This document shows positions 9,325 to 53,254 of a stretch of DNA of 53,818 bases, piece by piece. Numbering within the stretch: the stretch's first letter is position 1; every line of letters starts with the position of its first letter. The DNA comes from Agromyces humi (GTDB taxonomy: Bacteria > Actinomycetota > Actinomycetes > Actinomycetales > Microbacteriaceae): positions 1 through 53,818 of the forward strand of contig NZ_WJSP02000002.1 of assembly GCF_009720255.1 (NCBI RefSeq). Reading direction: 5' to 3'. The notes beneath the pieces are model-generated. The model saw nothing but the letters and a program-made list of their open reading frames with translations. It made no database searches and was not told where the DNA came from. The position numbers and the translations under genes are program-made.

Positions 9325-9573
9325 TTACGCGGCGACGAGCTCGCGGTGCTTGGCGGCCAGCTCGCCGATCTTGATCGGGTTGAACCCGGACCAGTGGTCG
9401 TCGTCGGTGATGACGACGGGCGCCTGCAGGTAGCCGAGCGACTTGATGTGGGCGAGGGCCTGCTCGTCGACCGAGACGTCGATGACGTCGTACTGGATGC
9501 CCTTGCCGTCGAGCGCGCGATAGGTGGCGTTGCACTGGACGCAGGAGGGCTTGGTGTAGACGGTGACGGTCAT
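9325..9573 (-). CDS. nrdH: NrdH-type glutaredoxin-like redoxin
   Basis: Small thiol redoxin of 82 residues, which in known systems reduces class Ib ribonucleotide reductase using thioredoxin reductase. The thioredoxin-fold active site CVQC is at residues 11-14, the cis-proline segment APVVI near 52, and the NrdH signature WSGFNP near 61. Reductase subunits are not in this window, so it may supply reductant to a host enzyme. Length and motifs fit the family exactly. An intrinsic terminator hairpin lies in its leader and another after its stop. Confidence 0.9.
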   Translation of the reverse strand: MTVTVYTKPSCVQCNATYRALDGKGIQYDVIDVSVDEQALAHIKSLGYLQAPVVITDDDHWSGFNPIKIGELAAKHRELVAA

Positions 9574-9596: not shown

Positions 9597-9624
9597 AAAA
9601 GCGCCCTCTGCGAAGGAGGACGCT
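9597..9624 (-). terminator. Terminator or attenuator upstream of nrdH
   Basis: AGCGTCCTC/GAGGGCGCT nine-pair stem (one G-T pair) with loop CTTCGCA and TTTTCT on the minus strand. It would end transcripts coming from the repeat array, or attenuate nrdH. Confidence 0.75.
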
Positions 9625-9712: not shown

Positions 9713-9999
9713 GCGACCTCTGCCGCGGCGGAGATTTTGACCTGGGTGCGAGGAGTGAGCCTCTGGATCACCTCCGCGAGGGCGGAGAAGGAGCGAATGC
9801 TGAGCCGCCGTTGTATGGATCACCTCCGCGGAGTGGCGGAGAAGGACGTCGATGCCTCGAGTGGGCTCTGGATCACCTCCGCGGTGTGCGGAGAAACGGG
9901 TCGAGTGCTTTGGTGGGCTCTGGATCACCTCCGCTAGGGCGGAGAACTGTCTGGGACCCTAAGGCGCGGGCAACGGATCACCTCCGCGGTGGCGGAGAA
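9713..9999 (-). repeat. Phased hairpin repeat array resembling type I-E CRISPR repeats
   Basis: Five clear copies of GGATCACCTCCGC-N(0-3)-GGCGGAGAA (plus-strand reading; one copy has TGCGGAGAA) start at 9765, 9817, 9870, 9922 and 9975. A degenerate copy starts at 9713. Start-to-start distances are 52, 52, 53, 52 and 53. Repeats are 25-27 bases with CTCCGC/GCGGAG stems; the 26-28-base intervals are mostly unique, though two end in GTGGGCTCT. GGATCACCTCC equals the 3' end of 16S rRNA; the minus strand therefore carries GGAGGTGATCC, a maximal Shine-Dalgarno sequence, and is also the usual crRNA orientation for I-E repeats. The array starts 10 bases after the stop at 10010. No cas genes are present. 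Confidence 0.85.
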
Positions 10000-10009
10000 A
10001 CCCCCACGT

Positions 10010-10516
10010 TCAGCCGGGATGGACCATGAGATCGTAGCCGTACAGGTCGGCGAGGGAGTGGATGAACGTCTGCTCGTCGGTCGGGTCGATGAACGAGACG
10101 TCCCCGGTGGGCAGGGGCACGTCGGTGTAGGGGGCGTAGTCGGTGCTGACGAGGACCAGCGGGACGGGGCCGTCCCAGTTGCCGGCGTACTGGTTGGTCG
10201 CCTGCCCGCGCGGTGCGAGGAGTGCGGTGGCGACCTCTTCGTTCGCGGCGGCGAGGTCGAACCATTCGGTCGCTGCGATGAGCTGCGCCTGGGATCGGTT
10301 GGCGATCATGGAGGCGGCGTGCACGCGTGCGATGAACGCGTCGACGTCACCGTCGTAGGAGTCGGGGAGCTCGGCGTAGCCGGGGATCAGCTCGGCGGCG
10401 AGGTCGGTGAGGGTGTCGGCGTACACGGTTCGGTCGCCGGTGTTCAGGGCGAACGGCCACGGGGTGCCGTCGTCCTTCAGGACGTGGTCGATCTCCTCGG
10501 TCACGAGGGAAGCCAT
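10010..10516 (-). CDS. Hypothetical protein, 168 aa
   Basis: Soluble acidic protein without recognised domain, signal peptide or membrane segment. The central part (about 55-100) is helical; the C-terminal third is richer in Asp/Pro. GGAAGGAG lies 6 bases before the ATG and a class 2 motif about 50 bases upstream. The repeat array begins directly after its stop and would be co-transcribed with it, so it is the best candidate for a protein partner of the array. Confidence 0.7.
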   Translation of the reverse strand: MASLVTEEIDHVLKDDGTPWPFALNTGDRTVYADTLTDLAAELIPGYAELPDSYDGDVDAFIARVHAASMIANRSQAQLIAATEWFDLAAANEEVATALLAPRGQATNQYAGNWDGPVPLVLVSTDYAPYTDVPLPTGDVSFIDPTDEQTFIHSLADLYGYDLMVHPG

Positions 10517-24271: not shown

Positions 24272-27200
24272 TCAGAAGTCGGACGGGACGTCCCGCTCGA
24301 GCACACGCTTCTGCGGCGCCGAACCGAACTCATCTGCCGCGAAGGACTTAGTGGCCGTCGTCGCCGACACAGCAACGACCACCGGTTCCGCCTCGGCCTC
24401 CGGCTCGTCAACGTCGTCGTCGAACTCGTCGAACGCCGACATGTCGAACGTCGGCGCATCATCGTCCACGGCCTCATCTGCGCCGCCGAGCCAGCCGAGG
24501 ATGAACTCCGCCTCCTCCACCTTCAACCCGGTGCCCTTGTCGGTCGCGGCGAGCAGCACCTCGACGCCGGCGTGCTCGAACAGCTCCTCCGACATCTCCG
24601 CCCACGTCAGACCGAGCGGAGACTCCGAACCCAACTGGTCGTCCAACCACACCGCACGCTCAACCTCCGGGTGCGCGTCCAGGTACGCGGCGACCGCGTC
24701 CAGCTTCCACCACCCGTGCCGGGACTCACCGCGACGGAGGGTCGGCAGTTCGCCGCGGCCGATCGCCGCCGCGAACGTCTCATTCGCGTACCCCTCCCAG
24801 TCGGTCAGCCATACCAGGCGGGCGTTCGCACCACCGAGCTGCTCGAGCATACGGGCGCTCACCCCCACCTCACCCATGCCGGGAACCGTCACCGTCCGCC
24901 AGTCACCCCATGCCGGGTCACCGGCCGGCGCGGACGCCGGCGAGATCGCCCCGTCGACATCGACGAACCACACCTGCGACGGGTGCTCATTCGAACGGGT
25001 GGGGACGGTCGGTTCCTGCACAGTCAGCTCCTCAGCTTCCTCAAGGTCAGCGTCGGCGGCCGCCGGCACCACATCATCGTCGGACTCGTCGTCGAGCTCA
25101 TCGAGGAACGACGAGAAGTCCACCTCGAACGAACCGAGATCCTCCACCACCGGAGCGGCAAGCACGGCAGGCTTGGACGGGCGCGCAGGAGGCTCAACGA
25201 CTGCATCCTCATCACCGGCGACAGCGAACTCACCAGTCACCTGCGGCTTCGGGATCAGCGCCTGCAGATCCAGACGCTCCGACTCCGGCAGCGGGGCCCG
25301 GCGCTCCGCGAGCTTCTCCGAATACGTCATCTGCGACGGCTCGAACCACGACTGGATGATCTCCGCCAGACCCTCGCCCTCGTACAGGCCGCGGCCCTTC
25401 GGGATGTGATCACCGAGCGTCGGCGCGTCCGTGAAGTTCTTCAGCGCGCTCGCACGGTCGCCGTTCGTCGCGTTGCCGAGCAGCATGCGGGAGAGGTTCG
25501 TGTTGTGGGTAGGGATGAACCCCTCGACGAGGAAGAGATGGCTCTCGTCGGCGACGCCGATGCAGCGCATTGGCTGTGCGTCCAACACCTCGATTGACTT
25601 CACGTACCGCCACTGAGTTCGGCTTGATTCCTTGAACACCTTCTTCATGCGAGCCAGCTTCCGGGGGAGGCGGAACACTGGAAGGTTCGTGCGGAACTGG
25701 ACCGAGTATGCCCGGCTGGTGATCTTCTTCTCAGTCCAACCCTCAGGGACGTTTCCGGCATCCCATTCACTCCAGGTTGCCTTGATCCCCAACGAACGGG
25801 CGAGCTCCATGATCTGCACCGAGAGTTCACGGCGGACCTGCAGTATGTGGCATTGACCGCTCCGCTTGTGAATAGTGCCGTCCGTGTCCATGAGACCTTG
25901 CAGGAGAGCGAGGCGCTGCGCTGCGGATGCACGCATATAGGCGGCTGGGATGTGCTTGTGGTTGAGGACGCCGGCCGCACGCAGGCTGGGGAGCATGTTG
26001 TGGACACCGACGGTCTTGCCGCTGTTGGTGACTGGGTTCGCCACGAAGCCTGCTGAGCGGATCTGGCCGATGAGGTGAGCTTGATCGGTCAGACCGACCT
26101 CGTCGGTGCAGCTCTCCGTTGCCGCGGATGTGAACGATCCGGCTTCAGTTGATCCGTCGCCCAGCCACGCTCCGAGGACGTACGGGTCGATCGGAAGGTC
26201 AACGTCAGGGCCATCGAAAGCCTCCGGGAGTCGGATGGCCCAGTTCGAGTGACTGCCACGGGCCACCAGCGTCTCCAGCATCTCTTGAGTGGTGACGATC
26301 CGCTCAAGGGGCAACGGTGCACCGTTGCTGTCCACTGCGACCATGTTCGTCAGCTCGGGGACGAGGTTGCTGATGAAGTGGTGTGCGTCATAGACGAACG
26401 GGGCGTGCTCCTGCTCGATCGAGGGGCATTCGAATTTCAGGAGGGTGGTGCCGACGTTTCCAGCGGCGCTGGCGGACACCGGTCCTCGTGATGCGATTTC
26501 GGTCAGCTCGCGAGCGGTGAGCCACAGATTGTCGTCGAGCGTGAGTTCGCGCACCGCGCCGGCGAGCTTGCTGCCACTGAGGCCAATGATCGCCGCAGCA
26601 GTGGGAGCGTGGAAAAGCTTGGGTGCAGTCCCACGACGCTCGTCACGGTCGTAATTACGCACCCTGCCAGTCAGCCGGTCGTACATGCCTCGTCTTGTGC
26701 CGAACTTCGTCGCGAGAGCGAGGATCCGCTCGGTGGTGAGGTATCCGAGTTCCTGGGCGAGTTCGGACGGAGACATCCACGTACCGGGCGCGACCGTGCC
26801 GAGCAACCGCTGTGCCCGAATGACCTTCTTCCACGGCCCATTTTCGCCGCGGTCTGTGCGGCCGTGCTGCTTGCGAGAGCGCATGTCGGCGGCCTGCCAC
26901 AGGTGTCCAGCGTCGACGTCAACAGTCTGCCCGTCGTCGAACTTGACTCTGTGAACCGGGCGATTGGTGACGATGTCGGTGAAGCCGAGGATCGGAGTGG
27001 TGTTGCCATATGGGGTGTAGACGCGGTCGCCGACGATGAGCTCCGAGTTGGTCGCCCAACCGTCGGGGAACCGCTCGGAAACTGGCACGGGTACCCGTGT
27101 GTCCATGGTCAGAAGCTTGAGGTCACCTGCGCCCGGGATCCCGTCCAGCATCTTGGCCGTCAGCTTCTGAGTGGCGAGGATGAGGGTGACGCCGGCCGAT

Positions 27201-30200
27201 CGGGCTTCGCGAGCGATCTTCCCGGTCATCGTGCCGATGTACGCCTTGGCCTGGTTGCTGCGGAGTTGGGTCTGACGCTCTGCTTCAACGACCGGGTCGT
27301 CCGAGGCGGTCTTGGAGACCGGATCGGGCTGCATGAGGCTCGTGAACTCGTCCATCATGAGGTAGATGTGCTTGGGTCGGACATCTGCCGGCAGGTCGCG
27401 GTAGCTGCCGACCTTGTGGGTCATGTTCAGCTCTTTGCGTCGCATGACCTCGCCGTAGACGTGCTTCATCAGCGCGGCTGCTTCTTCGACGGTCGATGCG
27501 AACGCCTTGGAGTAGGGCTCGACGAATCCGAAGTCGGCGCCGCCCTTGGTTGGGTCGACGACGTAGATCTCGTTGCCCTGGAGGGCTGCGCCGTAGAGCA
27601 GAACCTGCAGGTTCACCGACTTGCCGGCTCCGGATGCACCCGCGACGAGCACGTGCGGTGACTGCTTCGGCGAGAACACCACCGGCTCGCCTTCCACTCC
27701 GGTTGCGAACGGAAGTACCCCGTCGGCGGTGTCCATGACGTCCCAGTCCACTGCGGCGTACTCGGGAAGCGGGTGCTGCTTGGAGACGAGCATCCGCACG
27801 TTCTTGGCGCCTTCTGGGTGGTGCCTGACGTCGACGTACTGGTTGTCAGTCGCCGTCATGAGCGTCTGCGCGGCCGCCTTGATCTGGCCGCGGGTGACGC
27901 CGGGCGGCATTTCGAAGTCGAGCACCTGCACGTCTTGGTTCTTCGGGAGGACGTCGGTGCCGATGAGCTTGGGGACGACACCGCCGTCGCCGATGACCTT
28001 GGCGACAAGGAACGCCTGTTCCCAGTCAAGGCTGATGACGTAGTCTTCGTGGCTCATCTTGCTGCCGCGGCCGCGGACCTCGGCGTACTTGAATCCGGTG
28101 TTGGTCGGGTTCGCGCCGGTGACGATGGTGATGACACCATCGCCGGCTTCCGCGACCCGGAGCCACTGGGACTGGAGGGCCTGGCGGATCTTCTGCGCGT
28201 TCGTGCGGACTTCAGCGATGGTGACACCGCCGTACAGCTTCAGCTGCACCTTCCACATGTGCCCGCGGGAGCGGCGGTCGGTCATCGGTGTGGCGGAGAT
28301 GATCTCTGGCCGCGCGAGCCGGCAGGAGTCGAACGCCCGGTTGATGAGTCCTGCGAGCACCCATCCGGCGGCTTTGTTGTCCATCTCGGCCGGCATCACC
28401 TGGTCAGGTGTGGTGGGGAGTTGCTCGTCCGACCAGAACACGTTGATCGCCTGCTGGTGACGGTTCCCGGGGCGGATGCCACCCCAGCCGGAGACGCCGG
28501 TGATGGAGGTGAACGGTGCTGCGGAGAGTGTCGTGGACAGCTGCGGTTCGTACGGCTTGGGTGGCTGGATGTACTCGAGGATGGACACACCCTGGGGGAT
28601 CACCATCGGCTGGTTCTTGACGGTGACGAGCCGCCCGGACGGAGCGATCGGCAGCTTCGCTTCGCCGTAGACGTTGTACTGCGGGACGGGCTTCCGTGCG
28701 CCCATCTTCAGGATGTCGTTCCACCGCTGGTCCCACCGGGCGAGGACGGCCAGTTCGACGAAACGTTCGGCGAGGGCGGGGACGGTGAACTCGGGTGCGC
28801 CGTTGGTGAGCGTACCGATGTACATGGTGTTCGCTGCAGCGTCGACGATGACTTCGGTGCCGAGGTACGCGCCGATCACACCGGCGGACATCTCAACGAA
28901 TCCGAGGGACGCACCGTCGGGGAACGCCCATGCGGTCTGCCAAGCGCCGGGGGTGGGGCCTTCCGGCTCCCCGGAGGCGGGTGCCTCGTCCGGCTCGACG
29001 CCTTCAAGGTCGTCGAGGTCGTCGAGGCTGTCATCCTCACCGTCGGCGCTGTCGGAACCTTCCCAGAGCGGGTACTGCCCGTCCCGGTCGGGCCCGGCGG
29101 CGATGGACTGCGCCTCAAGCAGCACGCACCGGCCCATCCGCTGGTCGTTCGTGACCGCCCAGGTGAGCGCGGATGCGAACGCGAGCTCGACGAGCTCCTG
29201 GTCGACGTCGGAGGTGGACAGGTCTGGCAGTTCCCCGGTGAGCCAGGTGGCGATCCGGAACCGGAGCGGGTGCATGCTGCCGGGGATCGGCTGCCCGTTC
29301 GCGTCTACGTCCGGCTCTTCGAGGATCGCGATCTTCTTCCCGGAGCCGATGAGGAGGGTCAGCTGCGCGGTGAGCTGCATGATCCCGGCTGCGGCGCCGC
29401 CGGTCGCTGCGGCTTCGAAGGTGTCGACGGTGACGGTGTCGCCGATCGCCTTGTGCGCGACGAGCCGCGGTGGGGTTTCCAGCTTCAGCTCGGACGCCTT
29501 CCAGCGTGGATCCCATTCGAGGCGGGCTTGGACGCGGTCACGCCATTCCTGCAGCACCTGGTTCCGGAACGCGAGGTGAAGGACGGTGCCGGCCGCGGCG
29601 ACGATGACCGCGAGGTTCACTTGCCACAGCTGGATCGGGTAGATGTCCATCCACCAGGTGAACCGGGTCGCGATGATGCTGAATGCGAGTGACCCGGCGA
29701 ACGCTGCGGCGCCGGCGCCGATGAGCGCGCCGATCCCGCGGCCGCGGCCGGTGGGGGTGCCGAGCGCTGCGAGGAGGGCGTCGTAGCCGGTGGCGGGTGC
29801 GACGTCGTCTTGGGCTGCGTAGGTGCGGACGGCGGCGGACACCTGCATGACGAGGATGTATGCGCAGACGGCGTTGGCGGTACGCGCGAGGGTTTCGTAA
29901 CCGGTGAGGCCTGCGAGCTCTTCGAGGCCCGTGGCGGGGAACGCGGCGGCGATGACGGCCAGGCCGAGCGCGACGTAGAAGAGGAACTGGTGCTCGACTT
30001 GAGAGATGGTGTACCCGGCGAGCTTCTGCAGGGTCGGGAAATTCGAGTTGGCGAGCCAGGCGATCGGCTGCTGACGGCGGCCAGGCCAGAACGGCATCCA
30101 CGTCTCGGACGGGATGATCATCGACCACTTGAGGCTCGCCCACATCCGGTACCGGTTCAGTTCGAGCTGCTCGGTGGGGGAGCCCGGCGTCGGCGGGTCG

Positions 30201-30385
30201 TTCTTGGTGCGGCCGCCGGTCAGCTGCGGAGGAGAGGACAGGTGGGCGGCGGCGATGAATGCGATGAACGCGATCGCGAACCCGGGCATCCCGAAGTACT
30301 GGGCGACCGCACCTCCGATCGCTCCGATGACCGCGACGTGCGGCGCGATGTTCATCGTGGGTTCGGGTGCGCGGGCTGCTGGCAT
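24272..30385 (-). CDS. Large FtsK-type DNA translocase with intein and HAD domain
   Basis: 2037 residues. The N-terminus has several membrane helices (about 12-42, 145-215, 230-300). A central FtsK/SpoIIIE ATPase has Walker A GASGAGKS near 913, Walker B YLMMDEF near 1005 and TLILATQK. A class 3 intein occupies residues 1091-1628. The C-extein resumes TNLSRMLLG. An acidic linker leads to a HAD-like domain (DVDG near 1803, LTDW, a Lys, LDDQ near 1915). It is probably the membrane pump that moves DNA during transfer. The start is chosen by CGGAGACC and the class 2 motif upstream; Met 11 of this product is an alternative. Confidence 0.88.
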   Translation of the reverse strand: MPAARAPEPTMNIAPHVAVIGAIGGAVAQYFGMPGFAIAFIAFIAAAHLSSPPQLTGGRTKNDPPTPGSPTEQLELNRYRMWASLKWSMIIPSETWMPFWPGRRQQPIAWLANSNFPTLQKLAGYTISQVEHQFLFYVALGLAVIAAAFPATGLEELAGLTGYETLARTANAVCAYILVMQVSAAVRTYAAQDDVAPATGYDALLAALGTPTGRGRGIGALIGAGAAAFAGSLAFSIIATRFTWWMDIYPIQLWQVNLAVIVAAAGTVLHLAFRNQVLQEWRDRVQARLEWDPRWKASELKLETPPRLVAHKAIGDTVTVDTFEAAATGGAAAGIMQLTAQLTLLIGSGKKIAILEEPDVDANGQPIPGSMHPLRFRIATWLTGELPDLSTSDVDQELVELAFASALTWAVTNDQRMGRCVLLEAQSIAAGPDRDGQYPLWEGSDSADGEDDSLDDLDDLEGVEPDEAPASGEPEGPTPGAWQTAWAFPDGASLGFVEMSAGVIGAYLGTEVIVDAAANTMYIGTLTNGAPEFTVPALAERFVELAVLARWDQRWNDILKMGARKPVPQYNVYGEAKLPIAPSGRLVTVKNQPMVIPQGVSILEYIQPPKPYEPQLSTTLSAAPFTSITGVSGWGGIRPGNRHQQAINVFWSDEQLPTTPDQVMPAEMDNKAAGWVLAGLINRAFDSCRLARPEIISATPMTDRRSRGHMWKVQLKLYGGVTIAEVRTNAQKIRQALQSQWLRVAEAGDGVITIVTGANPTNTGFKYAEVRGRGSKMSHEDYVISLDWEQAFLVAKVIGDGGVVPKLIGTDVLPKNQDVQVLDFEMPPGVTRGQIKAAAQTLMTATDNQYVDVRHHPEGAKNVRMLVSKQHPLPEYAAVDWDVMDTADGVLPFATGVEGEPVVFSPKQSPHVLVAGASGAGKSVNLQVLLYGAALQGNEIYVVDPTKGGADFGFVEPYSKAFASTVEEAAALMKHVYGEVMRRKELNMTHKVGSYRDLPADVRPKHIYLMMDEFTSLMQPDPVSKTASDDPVVEAERQTQLRSNQAKAYIGTMTGKIAREARSAGVTLILATQKLTAKMLDGIPGAGDLKLLTMDTRVPVPVSERFPDGWATNSELIVGDRVYTPYGNTTPILGFTDIVTNRPVHRVKFDDGQTVDVDAGHLWQAADMRSRKQHGRTDRGENGPWKKVIRAQRLLGTVAPGTWMSPSELAQELGYLTTERILALATKFGTRRGMYDRLTGRVRNYDRDERRGTAPKLFHAPTAAAIIGLSGSKLAGAVRELTLDDNLWLTARELTEIASRGPVSASAAGNVGTTLLKFECPSIEQEHAPFVYDAHHFISNLVPELTNMVAVDSNGAPLPLERIVTTQEMLETLVARGSHSNWAIRLPEAFDGPDVDLPIDPYVLGAWLGDGSTEAGSFTSAATESCTDEVGLTDQAHLIGQIRSAGFVANPVTNSGKTVGVHNMLPSLRAAGVLNHKHIPAAYMRASAAQRLALLQGLMDTDGTIHKRSGQCHILQVRRELSVQIMELARSLGIKATWSEWDAGNVPEGWTEKKITSRAYSVQFRTNLPVFRLPRKLARMKKVFKESSRTQWRYVKSIEVLDAQPMRCIGVADESHLFLVEGFIPTHNTNLSRMLLGNATNGDRASALKNFTDAPTLGDHIPKGRGLYEGEGLAEIIQSWFEPSQMTYSEKLAERRAPLPESERLDLQALIPKPQVTGEFAVAGDEDAVVEPPARPSKPAVLAAPVVEDLGSFEVDFSSFLDELDDESDDDVVPAAADADLEEAEELTVQEPTVPTRSNEHPSQVWFVDVDGAISPASAPAGDPAWGDWRTVTVPGMGEVGVSARMLEQLGGANARLVWLTDWEGYANETFAAAIGRGELPTLRRGESRHGWWKLDAVAAYLDAHPEVERAVWLDDQLGSESPLGLTWAEMSEELFEHAGVEVLLAATDKGTGLKVEEAEFILGWLGGADEAVDDDAPTFDMSAFDEFDDDVDEPEAEAEPVVVAVSATTATKSFAADEFGSAPQKRVLERDVPSDF
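25502..27115 (-). other. Class 3 intein with LAGLIDADG homing endonuclease
   Basis: 538 codons inserted between GDLK and TNLS of the FtsK extein. The intein starts LLTMDTRVPVP and lacks a nucleophilic residue 1. Block B has HLW, block F has RCI, and the end is FIPTHN followed by Thr: the W-C-T set of class 3 inteins. Endonuclease motifs LGAWLGDG (about residue 1405) and LLQGLMDTDG (about 1495) look intact. Base composition is visibly less GC-rich than the exteins, suggesting independent arrival. Confidence 0.9.
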
Positions 30386-30428
30386 GGGTGGTCTCCGGTG
30401 CAGAGGCTGGATGGAGCTGCCCACGTCA

Positions 30429-52324: not shown

Positions 52325-53254
52325 ATGACGCAGACCCTCACCGAGATCACCCCTGTCTCCAACAGCTGCCAGCGGTGGAACGACCGGAAGCACTCGTGGC
52401 GGCACCCGTCGGAGGGCGGGTTCGACGCCCGCCGGTTCGAAGCTGTCCCACTGTCGGAGGCGGTGGCGAAGGCGTTCACGGTCAGGAACCACTACAGCGG
52501 CTCATTTCCCGCGGCACGGTTCGCGTACGGCCTCACCACCGACGACGAGCGCCTCGGCACCGACGGGACGCTCGTCGATGGCCGGCATCTGGTCGGAGTC
52601 GCGGTCTTGTCCGTGCCGATGTCGTCGGCCGCGCTGAGCAACGTGTTCCCAGACCTCGAGCCGATCCAGCAGACGATCGAGCTCGGCCGGTTCGTCCTCA
52701 CCGACAGCGCCCCAGCGAACGCGGAATCGTGGTTTCTCGGGCATCTGTTCCAGATGGCCGCGGACGACGGCATCCGTGGTGTCGTCGCGTTCGCAGACCC
52801 CATCCCGAGACGTCGGACCACCCTCACCATCGACGAGGACGGCAACCTCGGCGAAGAGGTCGAAGAGGTGCTGCCTGGACATGTGGGGTTGATCTATCAG
52901 GCCAGCAACGGCCGGGCGCTCGGCCGGTCCACGCCGCGGACCCTGAACTACGTCCCTCGGGTCGGCAAGGTCCTGTCCGAGCGGACACTCTCGAAGGTCC
53001 GCACTGGAGACCGCGGCGCCGAAGCCGGAGAGAAGCAGCTCATCGCCCTCGGCGCCCGAGCACGTCTCGCCGGTGAGAACCCGAAGACCTGGCTCGCGCG
53101 GGCGCTTCACGACATCGGCGCGACGAAACTCCGGCACCCCGGCAACCACCGATACGCATGGGCGCTCGGCACGCCAGCTCAGCGGCGACACACCCGGTTC
53201 GGGCTCGAGCAGACGGCGTACCCGAAGCCCAGAGATCTCCTGACGGTGGCGTAA
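52325..53254 (+). CDS. Mom-like GNAT-fold protein, 309 aa
   Basis: Resembles phage Mu Mom and related proteins: VRNHYSGSFPAARFAYGL (around residue 55), GVAVLSVPMS, IELGRFVLTD, NAESWFLGHLF. The family has a GNAT-like fold and modifies adenine in DNA (carbamoylmethylation in Mu), protecting it from restriction enzymes. The C-terminal part contains a DIGATKLRHPGNHRYAWALG segment. The start is fixed by the class 2 motif spacing. Recognised by pattern only; the modification it makes is not shown. Confidence 0.72.
   Translation: MTQTLTEITPVSNSCQRWNDRKHSWRHPSEGGFDARRFEAVPLSEAVAKAFTVRNHYSGSFPAARFAYGLTTDDERLGTDGTLVDGRHLVGVAVLSVPMSSAALSNVFPDLEPIQQTIELGRFVLTDSAPANAESWFLGHLFQMAADDGIRGVVAFADPIPRRRTTLTIDEDGNLGEEVEEVLPGHVGLIYQASNGRALGRSTPRTLNYVPRVGKVLSERTLSKVRTGDRGAEAGEKQLIALGARARLAGENPKTWLARALHDIGATKLRHPGNHRYAWALGTPAQRRHTRFGLEQTAYPKPRDLLTVA

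Follow-up and report, generated by a model that had tools for sequence, protein, structure and literature searches.

A short-period array of type I-E repeats in Agromyces humi with spacers matching ABC-ATPase motifs

A row of regularly spaced hairpins lies between two genes on a contig of Agromyces humi. Is it a CRISPR array, a mimic of one, or a set of binding sites that happens to look like one? The window, meaning the whole stretch of DNA analysed, is 53,818 nt long and is one entire contig (C112) of an 812-contig assembly. A first-pass annotation described five clear units and one degenerate unit every 52-53 bases. This description holds. Five exact copies of GGATCACCTCCGC start at 9765, 9817, 9870, 9922 and 9975 (start to start 52/53/52/53), and the sixth unit has its stem at 9718-9733.

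GCGGAG pairs with each GGATCACCTCCGC across loops of 4, 6, 5, 4 and 4 nt, in plus-strand order. The minus strand is the sense of both flanking genes, q168 (a label for a 168-aa hypothetical gene) and nrdH, and the RNA sense of the array; read on it, each clean unit is TTCTCCGC-loop-GCGGAG-GTGATCC. The hairpin followed by GTGATCC occurs five times on the minus strand of the window and never on the plus strand. When the whole assembly was searched for GGATCACCTCCGC and GCGGAG separated by 4 to 12 nt, all five matches fell in the array. The features are as follows.

10010..10516, minus strand: q168, 168-aa conserved hypothetical protein of actinobacterial plasmids, upstream of the array; no Pfam match
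9975..9999, minus strand: U1, first unit in RNA sense, stem CTCCGC/GCGGAG, loop CACC (the same as in the first Leifsonia unit), handle GTGATCC
9947..9974, minus strand: spacer 1, 28 nt; matches ABC-ATPase Walker A codons (LGPNGAGK) imperfectly and in antisense, in plasmid records and chromosome
9922..9946, minus strand: U2, loop CCTA, handle GTGATCC
9896..9921, minus strand: spacer 2, 26 nt; reads EPTKALD(P) in the D-loop register; agrees with the Leifsonia spacer at 17/23 positions
9870..9895, minus strand: U3, loop ACACC (5 nt), handle GTGATCC
9844..9869, minus strand: spacer 3, 26 nt; EPTRGIDV, as in the Walker B/D-loop of sugar ABC-transporter ATPases, is encoded by the core (9845-9868)
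9817..9843, minus strand: U4, loop CACTCC (6 nt), handle GTGATCC
9790..9816, minus strand: spacer 4, 27 nt; target not found
9765..9789, minus strand: U5, loop CCTC, handle GTGATCC
9734..9764, minus strand: spacer 5, 31 nt as measured to the following stem; target not found; one other family genome matches at no more than 3 mismatches over a 25-nt core
9713..9735, minus strand: U6, degenerate terminal repeat, stem 9718-9733, handle lost, one A-C stem mismatch on the minus strand
9604..9616, minus strand: weak terminator-like stem between array and nrdH; 1 found against 0.5 expected from shuffles
9325..9573, minus strand: nrdH-like glutaredoxin gene, downstream of the array

Elsewhere in the window, a 2050-aa FtsK-type ORF (24272-30424) includes an intein-like segment of the LAGLIDADG homing-endonuclease type and matches HAD_SAK_2 at its C-terminus. 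A homologue of the Mom DNA-modification protein is encoded at 52325-53254 (Pfam Mom, E 8e-18).

Repeat identity and the same locus in relatives

Period-61 arrays in Secundilactobacillus, Lactobacillus, Actinocrinis, Streptomyces and Actinomadura have precisely this core, with a 4-nt loop, as their repeat. At first pass a likeness to actinobacterial type I-E repeats had been noticed; in stem and flank it is an identity. GTGATCC is taken here to be the type I-E 5' handle. Judged by its sequence, each window unit is a type I-E repeat with a stem, a free loop and an invariant GUGAUCC handle.

The arrangement of these repeats is less usual. Canonical type I-E arrays combine near-identical repeats with a period of about 61 and unrelated spacers, whereas the window has a period of 51-54, loops of 4-6 nt and two related spacers (2 and 3). 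It had also been claimed that loop length varies while the total period is kept. This is correct for the starts of GGATCACC, of which the near-constant period is a property, but not for the stem starts in RNA sense, which lie 53, 51, 52, 54 and 54 nt apart. Handle-to-next-stem lengths are 30, 28, 28, 29 and 31 nt. Stem and GTGATCC handle are invariant in the five units, while the loops vary from 4 to 6 nt. The array begins 10 nt past the stop codon of the 168-aa gene. Rfam gave no match for it at gathering scores, and a sigma-70 promoter sought at the array was not found.

The region downstream of q168 was read in 15 relatives. I-E-like hairpins are present in two, Leifsonia sp. Leaf264 and the plasmid of Glaciihabitans sp. 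INWT7, and none were seen in the other 13. The Leifsonia locus, on a 701-kb contig (C5, near 470.35k), has two units with a stem period of 48 between q168 and nrdH, in the same order of gene, array and nrdH as in the window. The Glaciihabitans plasmid carries a two-unit remnant in the same place (L126, near 5578), with a stem period of 55 and the unit CCCCGT-CGTG-ACGGGG-GTGTTCC. Handle and next stem are 25 nt apart in Leifsonia and 32 nt apart in Glaciihabitans, and the last unit is degenerate at all three loci. The stem period differs between the loci. The Glaciihabitans spacer has its top chromosomal match at 19/28, within shuffle range; by eye it resembles the antisense T-arm of a tRNA gene.

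Relatives of q168 itself occur on 15 PLSDB plasmids, all from Actinomycetota; among 398 family genomes, 9 have one. None were found in INPHARED, or by a pattern search of genome contigs and viral contigs.

These comparisons bear on a role in binding DNA or ribosomes. The array could consist of phased operator or partition sites, act as a Shine-Dalgarno sponge, or be a 3'-UTR element of the 168-aa gene. Such a role would suit the regular period in the window, the start of the array so soon after the upstream stop codon, and the presence of GGAGGTGATCC, which presumably complements the 16S 3' end. A Shine-Dalgarno reading had been proposed on the last of these grounds. However, the Glaciihabitans unit keeps the form of hairpin and handle in the same place without keeping GGAGGTGATCC, and the 16S resemblance is a by-product, because the I-E repeat itself has that sequence. 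Stem periods of 48 and 55 in the relatives, a loop that changes length inside the palindrome, and spacers that match ABC genes, as described below, also speak against binding sites. This explanation is barely credible.

A type I-E operon on a second contig

No cas genes had been noticed nearby. For this contig the statement stands, since a scan of 20 window proteins found no cas family. Another contig of the same assembly, however, carries a divergent type I-E operon. Its orthologue in Leifsonia sp. Leaf264 (cas3, cas8e, cas7, cas5, cas6e) lies on C5, about 68 kb from the array; in the A. humi assembly the operon is on contig C778. By tblastn, 25 of the 48 called window genes and 22 C778 genes match C5 in collinear blocks, although two of the 25 are probably spurious frames that overlap the same T2SS genes. 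Because C112 and C778 are block-wise collinear with C5, they are probably parts of one giant plasmid, a linkage made through a relative between contigs that are separate in the assembly. Cse1 is present in 20 of 398 family genomes, and the A. humi assembly, like that of Leaf264, has a single Cse1 match, the divergent one associated with this replicon. Neither PLSDB nor INPHARED contains a relative of Cas8e at E 1e-5, the Glaciihabitans plasmid included.

Profile matches on C778 identify Cas3e, a 688-aa Cas8e, Cas7e, Cas5e and Cas6e. Cas8e matches Pfam Cse1 above the cut-off (E 3e-28); with NCBIfam models, Cas5e matches above the cut-off and Cse1, Cas7e and Cas6e match below theirs. Cas3 retains the HD, HH, Walker A, DEVH and QRAGR motifs, to which we assume their usual roles apply. 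A separate cse2 gene was not seen, and no separate gene lies between cas8e and cas7. The Cse1 match covers residues 27-477 of Cas8e (L107:6050-8116, C778), leaving about 210 residues beyond it. Since the match ends at 477 of 688 and no separate cse2 was seen, a Cas11 that is fused to Cas8e or translated from within it is possible.

In both operons cas6e is followed by a divergent Cas1, which the Cas1 profile search had missed. The reference for comparison was the Cas1 of a related system (G369) with a period-61 array (repeat ...TTCCCCGCGCACGCGGGGGTGTTCC), and the assignment of catalytic residues is our assumption. The catalytic Glu is replaced by Asp in both plasmids, the last Asp by Cys in C778 and by Ser in Leaf264, and the His is lost in C778 and kept in Leaf264. 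Four neighbouring ORFs scanned on C778 gave no match to Cas2. With catalytic residues of Cas1 lost and no Cas2 seen nearby, the spacers are probably not renewable, and the array looks frozen.

Nor was a second array found. C5 has exactly one perfect stem with GTGATCC, and it adjoins q168. The 4-nt-loop pattern, at up to 3 mismatches, gave only scattered single matches elsewhere in the A. humi and Leaf264 assemblies; a looser repeat scan of C5 gave 15 scattered matches and no other array; and CRISPR scans of C778 by 16-mers, repeats and short k-mers gave no array.

The plasmid shares its effector proteins, its repeat stem and its handle with true type I-E (Cascade-Cas3) systems. It differs from them in the state of Cas1, in the lack of Cas2 among the scanned neighbours and of a separate Cse2 gene, in an array that sits on another part of the replicon with variable loops and a stem period of 48-55 instead of 61, and in guides against chromosomal ABC genes. 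It can also be compared with type IV-A CRISPR-Cas systems, which are plasmid-borne, have no working adaptation of their own and have a DinG-like helicase gene, but here the effector is type I-E with Cas3 and Cas8e. A DinG-like helicase gene adjoins the type I-E operon in both plasmids, at L107:12875-15193 on C778 (PADLOC typeIV_DinG, E 4e-56 for this copy, the one scanned) and at C5:530766-533117 in Leaf264. A 126-aa ORF near the cas operon (L107:1784-2164, C778) is similar to one portion of peptide chain release factors, with a score under the cut-off (TIGR00020, E 4e-12).

Spacer matches to ABC-ATPase genes

Spacers 2 and 3 resemble each other and the spacer of Leifsonia (Leaf1). Leaf1 is identical to spacer 2 at 17 of 23 positions (0/500 shuffles) and to spacer 3 at 15 of 23 (p 0.002), and spacers 2 and 3 agree at 16 of 26 (0/500 shuffles). 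Translated from the second base, spacer 3 reads EPTRGIDV, spacer 2 EPTKALDP and Leaf1 EPTTALD, a stretch that we take to be the Walker B/D-loop of ABC ATPases. The differences fall mostly where ABC proteins vary (EPT[K/R/T][A/G][L/I]D[P/V]), and the Lys of EPTKALD in spacer 2 is absent from all 27 chromosomal D-loops compared. The three may form one guide lineage. As they are alike and perhaps of common origin, only two independent ABC matches are certain.

The target sequence of spacer 3 begins GAGCCCAC. At least three other family genomes contain the 24-nt core of this spacer unchanged, and with no more than 3 mismatches it occurs in 240 of 378 family genomes, the A. humi genome included. 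A reversed-pattern control gave 0 among the matches listed, and spacer 5, as a control in the same search, matched in 2 of 378, one of these being its own array. All 29 matches that were read as loci are sugar-ABC ATPases at this motif (28 DEPTRG(I/V)D, one AQPTRGID), and 53 of 58 mismatches are at third codon positions. The trinucleotide 5' of the match is GAC in 24, GAT in 4 and GCC in 1. This is suggestive of a PAM, GAC being also the natural Asp codon before Glu. The A. humi assembly (G000) contains the target in two places, with 2 and 3 mismatches; no perfect match of any guide to its own host was seen.

Spacer 1 matched five plasmid records. Three of these are ABC-ATPase genes, matched in antisense at Walker A (E 0.6, 2 and 7). 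In the same database spacers 4 and 5 had no ABC match. The proposals that U4 is a guide for the ABC signature and U5 one for the H-loop or a DEAH box found no support in the plasmid, family-genome or chromosome searches.

Controls were run on 1.2 Mb of chromosome from a congener, in which 27 ABC domains identified by motif make up 1.5% of bases; the motif mask used for these figures covers the second domains of sugar-ABC proteins. Among the top 10 matches, ABC domains number 4 for U1, 2 for U2, 3 for U3 and 3 for Leaf1, each count reached by 0/100 shuffles (for U2 and Leaf1 it is 2-3, depending on how ties are handled). U4, U5 and the Glaciihabitans spacer have none in their top 10. In longer lists, shuffles reached the count for U2 in 1/100 and for U3 in 1/100 at the top 20, and in 0 and 3/100 at the top 40. 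Against 11 segments running from signature to Walker B, which leave out Walker A, U2, U3 and Leaf1 exceed shuffles and U1, U4 and U5 do not.

Real spacers provide a further control. Of 214 spacers from true period-61 I-E arrays, 193 have no ABC domain in their top 10, 20 have one and 1 has three. About 58% of these spacers have a lower GC content (0.41-0.48); among the 90 of high GC (0.60-0.69), one has two or more ABC matches. ABC-motif spacers are 3 of 5 in the window, against 1 of 214 in real I-E arrays. The most parsimonious reading is that at least two guide lineages, one for Walker A and one for Walker B/D-loop, would be aimed at ABC-transporter genes. The same motif found no credible ABC domain in the window, C778 or C5, where one match was spurious by eye.

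Possible functions of the array

On balance it is probable that the plasmid carries a non-adaptive Cascade with fixed guides against ABC-transporter genes of the host, probably for silencing them. The main alternative is a relic of an ordinary immune array. A type I-E system would once have worked, then lost adaptation while its array decayed, and the ABC matches would be old spacers, taken from chromosomes or other elements, with no present role. The residue loss in Cas1, the lack of Cas2 nearby, the degenerate last units, the Glaciihabitans remnant on a plasmid without a Cas8e relative, and the lack of targets for U4 and U5 can all be explained in this way. Decay is harder to reconcile with five units in which stem and handle are invariant while loops vary, with the excess of ABC motifs over real spacers, with a guide common to two genera that differs mostly at residues variable among ABC proteins, and with intact Cas3 motifs. 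A relic is unlikely. An ordinary array served by a cas locus elsewhere had also been considered at first pass. The cas operon has indeed been found elsewhere, but the lost catalytic residues of Cas1, the short spacers and the guide common to plasmids of two genera indicate that this is not an ordinary immune array.

Repeat mimics may also act as decoys. In a Racr-like RNA anti-CRISPR, mimics with short spacers would occupy the Cas6e and Cas7 proteins of a type I-E system, whether resident or incoming. Like Racr RNAs, the array consists of repeats on a mobile element without adaptation, and the Glaciihabitans plasmid has units and no Cas8e relative. Racr candidates have been reported as confirmed in the case of I-E, and plasmids are reported to account for 90 of the solitary repeats put forward as candidates; the survey covers solitary units, and SRUFinder ignores full repeat matches clustered within 100 bp (PMC10651486). 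The window differs in that its cognate cas operon is probably on the same replicon and its spacers match genes, which weakens both the decoy and the protein-phasing readings offered by the first-pass annotation. The only Cse1 match in the A. humi and Leaf264 assemblies is, moreover, probably the replicon's own. A decoy is improbable here.

Short-period I-E-like mini-arrays do exist in viral contigs, where multi-unit decoys may occur. By eye, and unlike those of the window, their short spacers seem structured, with ACT-NNN-AGT cores and a GGGGC that could pair with the handle. IMG/VR loci L140-L152 and L257-L318, on viral contigs chosen by an I-E-like two-unit pattern, have no more than 8 units in 70 of 73 cases. 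Their periods peak at 61 (64 intervals), 48-50 (32) and 43 (7), in steps of roughly 6 nt. In the 43/44-nt class, 8 of 8 spacers have a TA(C/T)T-NNN-AGT core and 6 of 8 have GCTTGNTACTNNNAGT; several 49-nt spacers could pair with their own handle (GGCCCC...GGGGC, by eye). From their sequences, the short-period loci look like multi-unit RNA decoys.

Guides of another kind are known from CreTA/CreR, in which a few degenerate type I repeats keep their handle features and fixed guides act through partial matches. CreA genes are reported to repress a toxin gene and to have degenerate repeats in which an 8-nt 5' handle is preserved (PMC8501985). The window array could likewise be directed at a promoter of a toxin or of the cas genes on the same plasmid, and its units keep stem and handle sequence, where Cas6 might cut. 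However, no spacer matches C112 or C778 (93 kb of its own replicon) better than shuffles do, and across all 701 kb of C5 Leaf1 has no match that exceeds chance. A candidate target of Leaf1 at C5:308942 (19/23) was rejected, as it lies inside a coding sequence and 19 was reached by 2/30 shuffles. With no toxin or self-promoter target found, and with several guides for coding motifs of a chromosomal gene family, a CreA-like role is very improbable.

Fixed guides for silencing would work as follows. Minus-strand RNA would continue from the 168-aa gene through the array, and the plasmid's own Cas6e would cut at each hairpin. The products would be crRNA-like RNAs, each made up of a GUGAUCC-N handle and a short guide, and would load into the plasmid's Cascade; the distance between handle and next stem is 28-31 nt here and 25 nt in Leifsonia. 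Spacers would probably not be renewed, and stem and handle would have been kept while loops and lengths drifted. At least three of the five guides and the Leifsonia guide would recognise universal ABC-ATPase motifs, antisense for Walker A and sense for Walker B/D-loop, mostly beside a GAC/GAT trinucleotide (for U1 also GTC). Such target genes are common on host chromosomes and were not found on the plasmid sequence examined. The likely effect would be repression of ABC-transporter genes of the host or a recipient, by Cascade with short, imperfect guides, presumably to the benefit of the plasmid. Cutting by Cas3 would be possible. Silencing is likelier than efficient cutting, because carriers survive despite chromosomal near-matches such as the two to spacer 3. 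Counter to silencing by fixed guides are U4 and U5 without an ABC match, the imperfect match of U1, the fading enrichment of U3 in longer lists, the Lys of spacer 2, the failure to find a sigma-70 promoter or a perfect match of a guide in its own host, and the Glaciihabitans remnant, whose plasmid lacks a Cas8e relative and whose spacer lacks an ABC match.

A wider claim is possible and is put forward tentatively. The giant plasmid may carry inherited guides fitted to codons for the universal motifs of ABC ATPases. With these, its non-adaptive Cascade would silence or attack the ABC-transporter genes of the whole host family, although the plasmid has no such gene itself. The parts of the open-licence PMC literature consulted, including PMC11656645, yielded no report of spacers against ABC transporters, of type I-E systems on megaplasmids of this family, or of such crRNA repression of endogenous genes. 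Guides of this kind could escape searches that look only for period-61 arrays or only for solitary repeats.

CRISPR spacers normally record past invaders. The guides described here look inherited, and the motifs that they match are the best conserved in a large family of chromosomal genes. The element that carries them is mobile, and catalytic residues of its adaptation gene have been lost. If the favoured reading is true, this would be a natural CRISPR by which a plasmid controls its host broadly, through motif codons common to a gene family.
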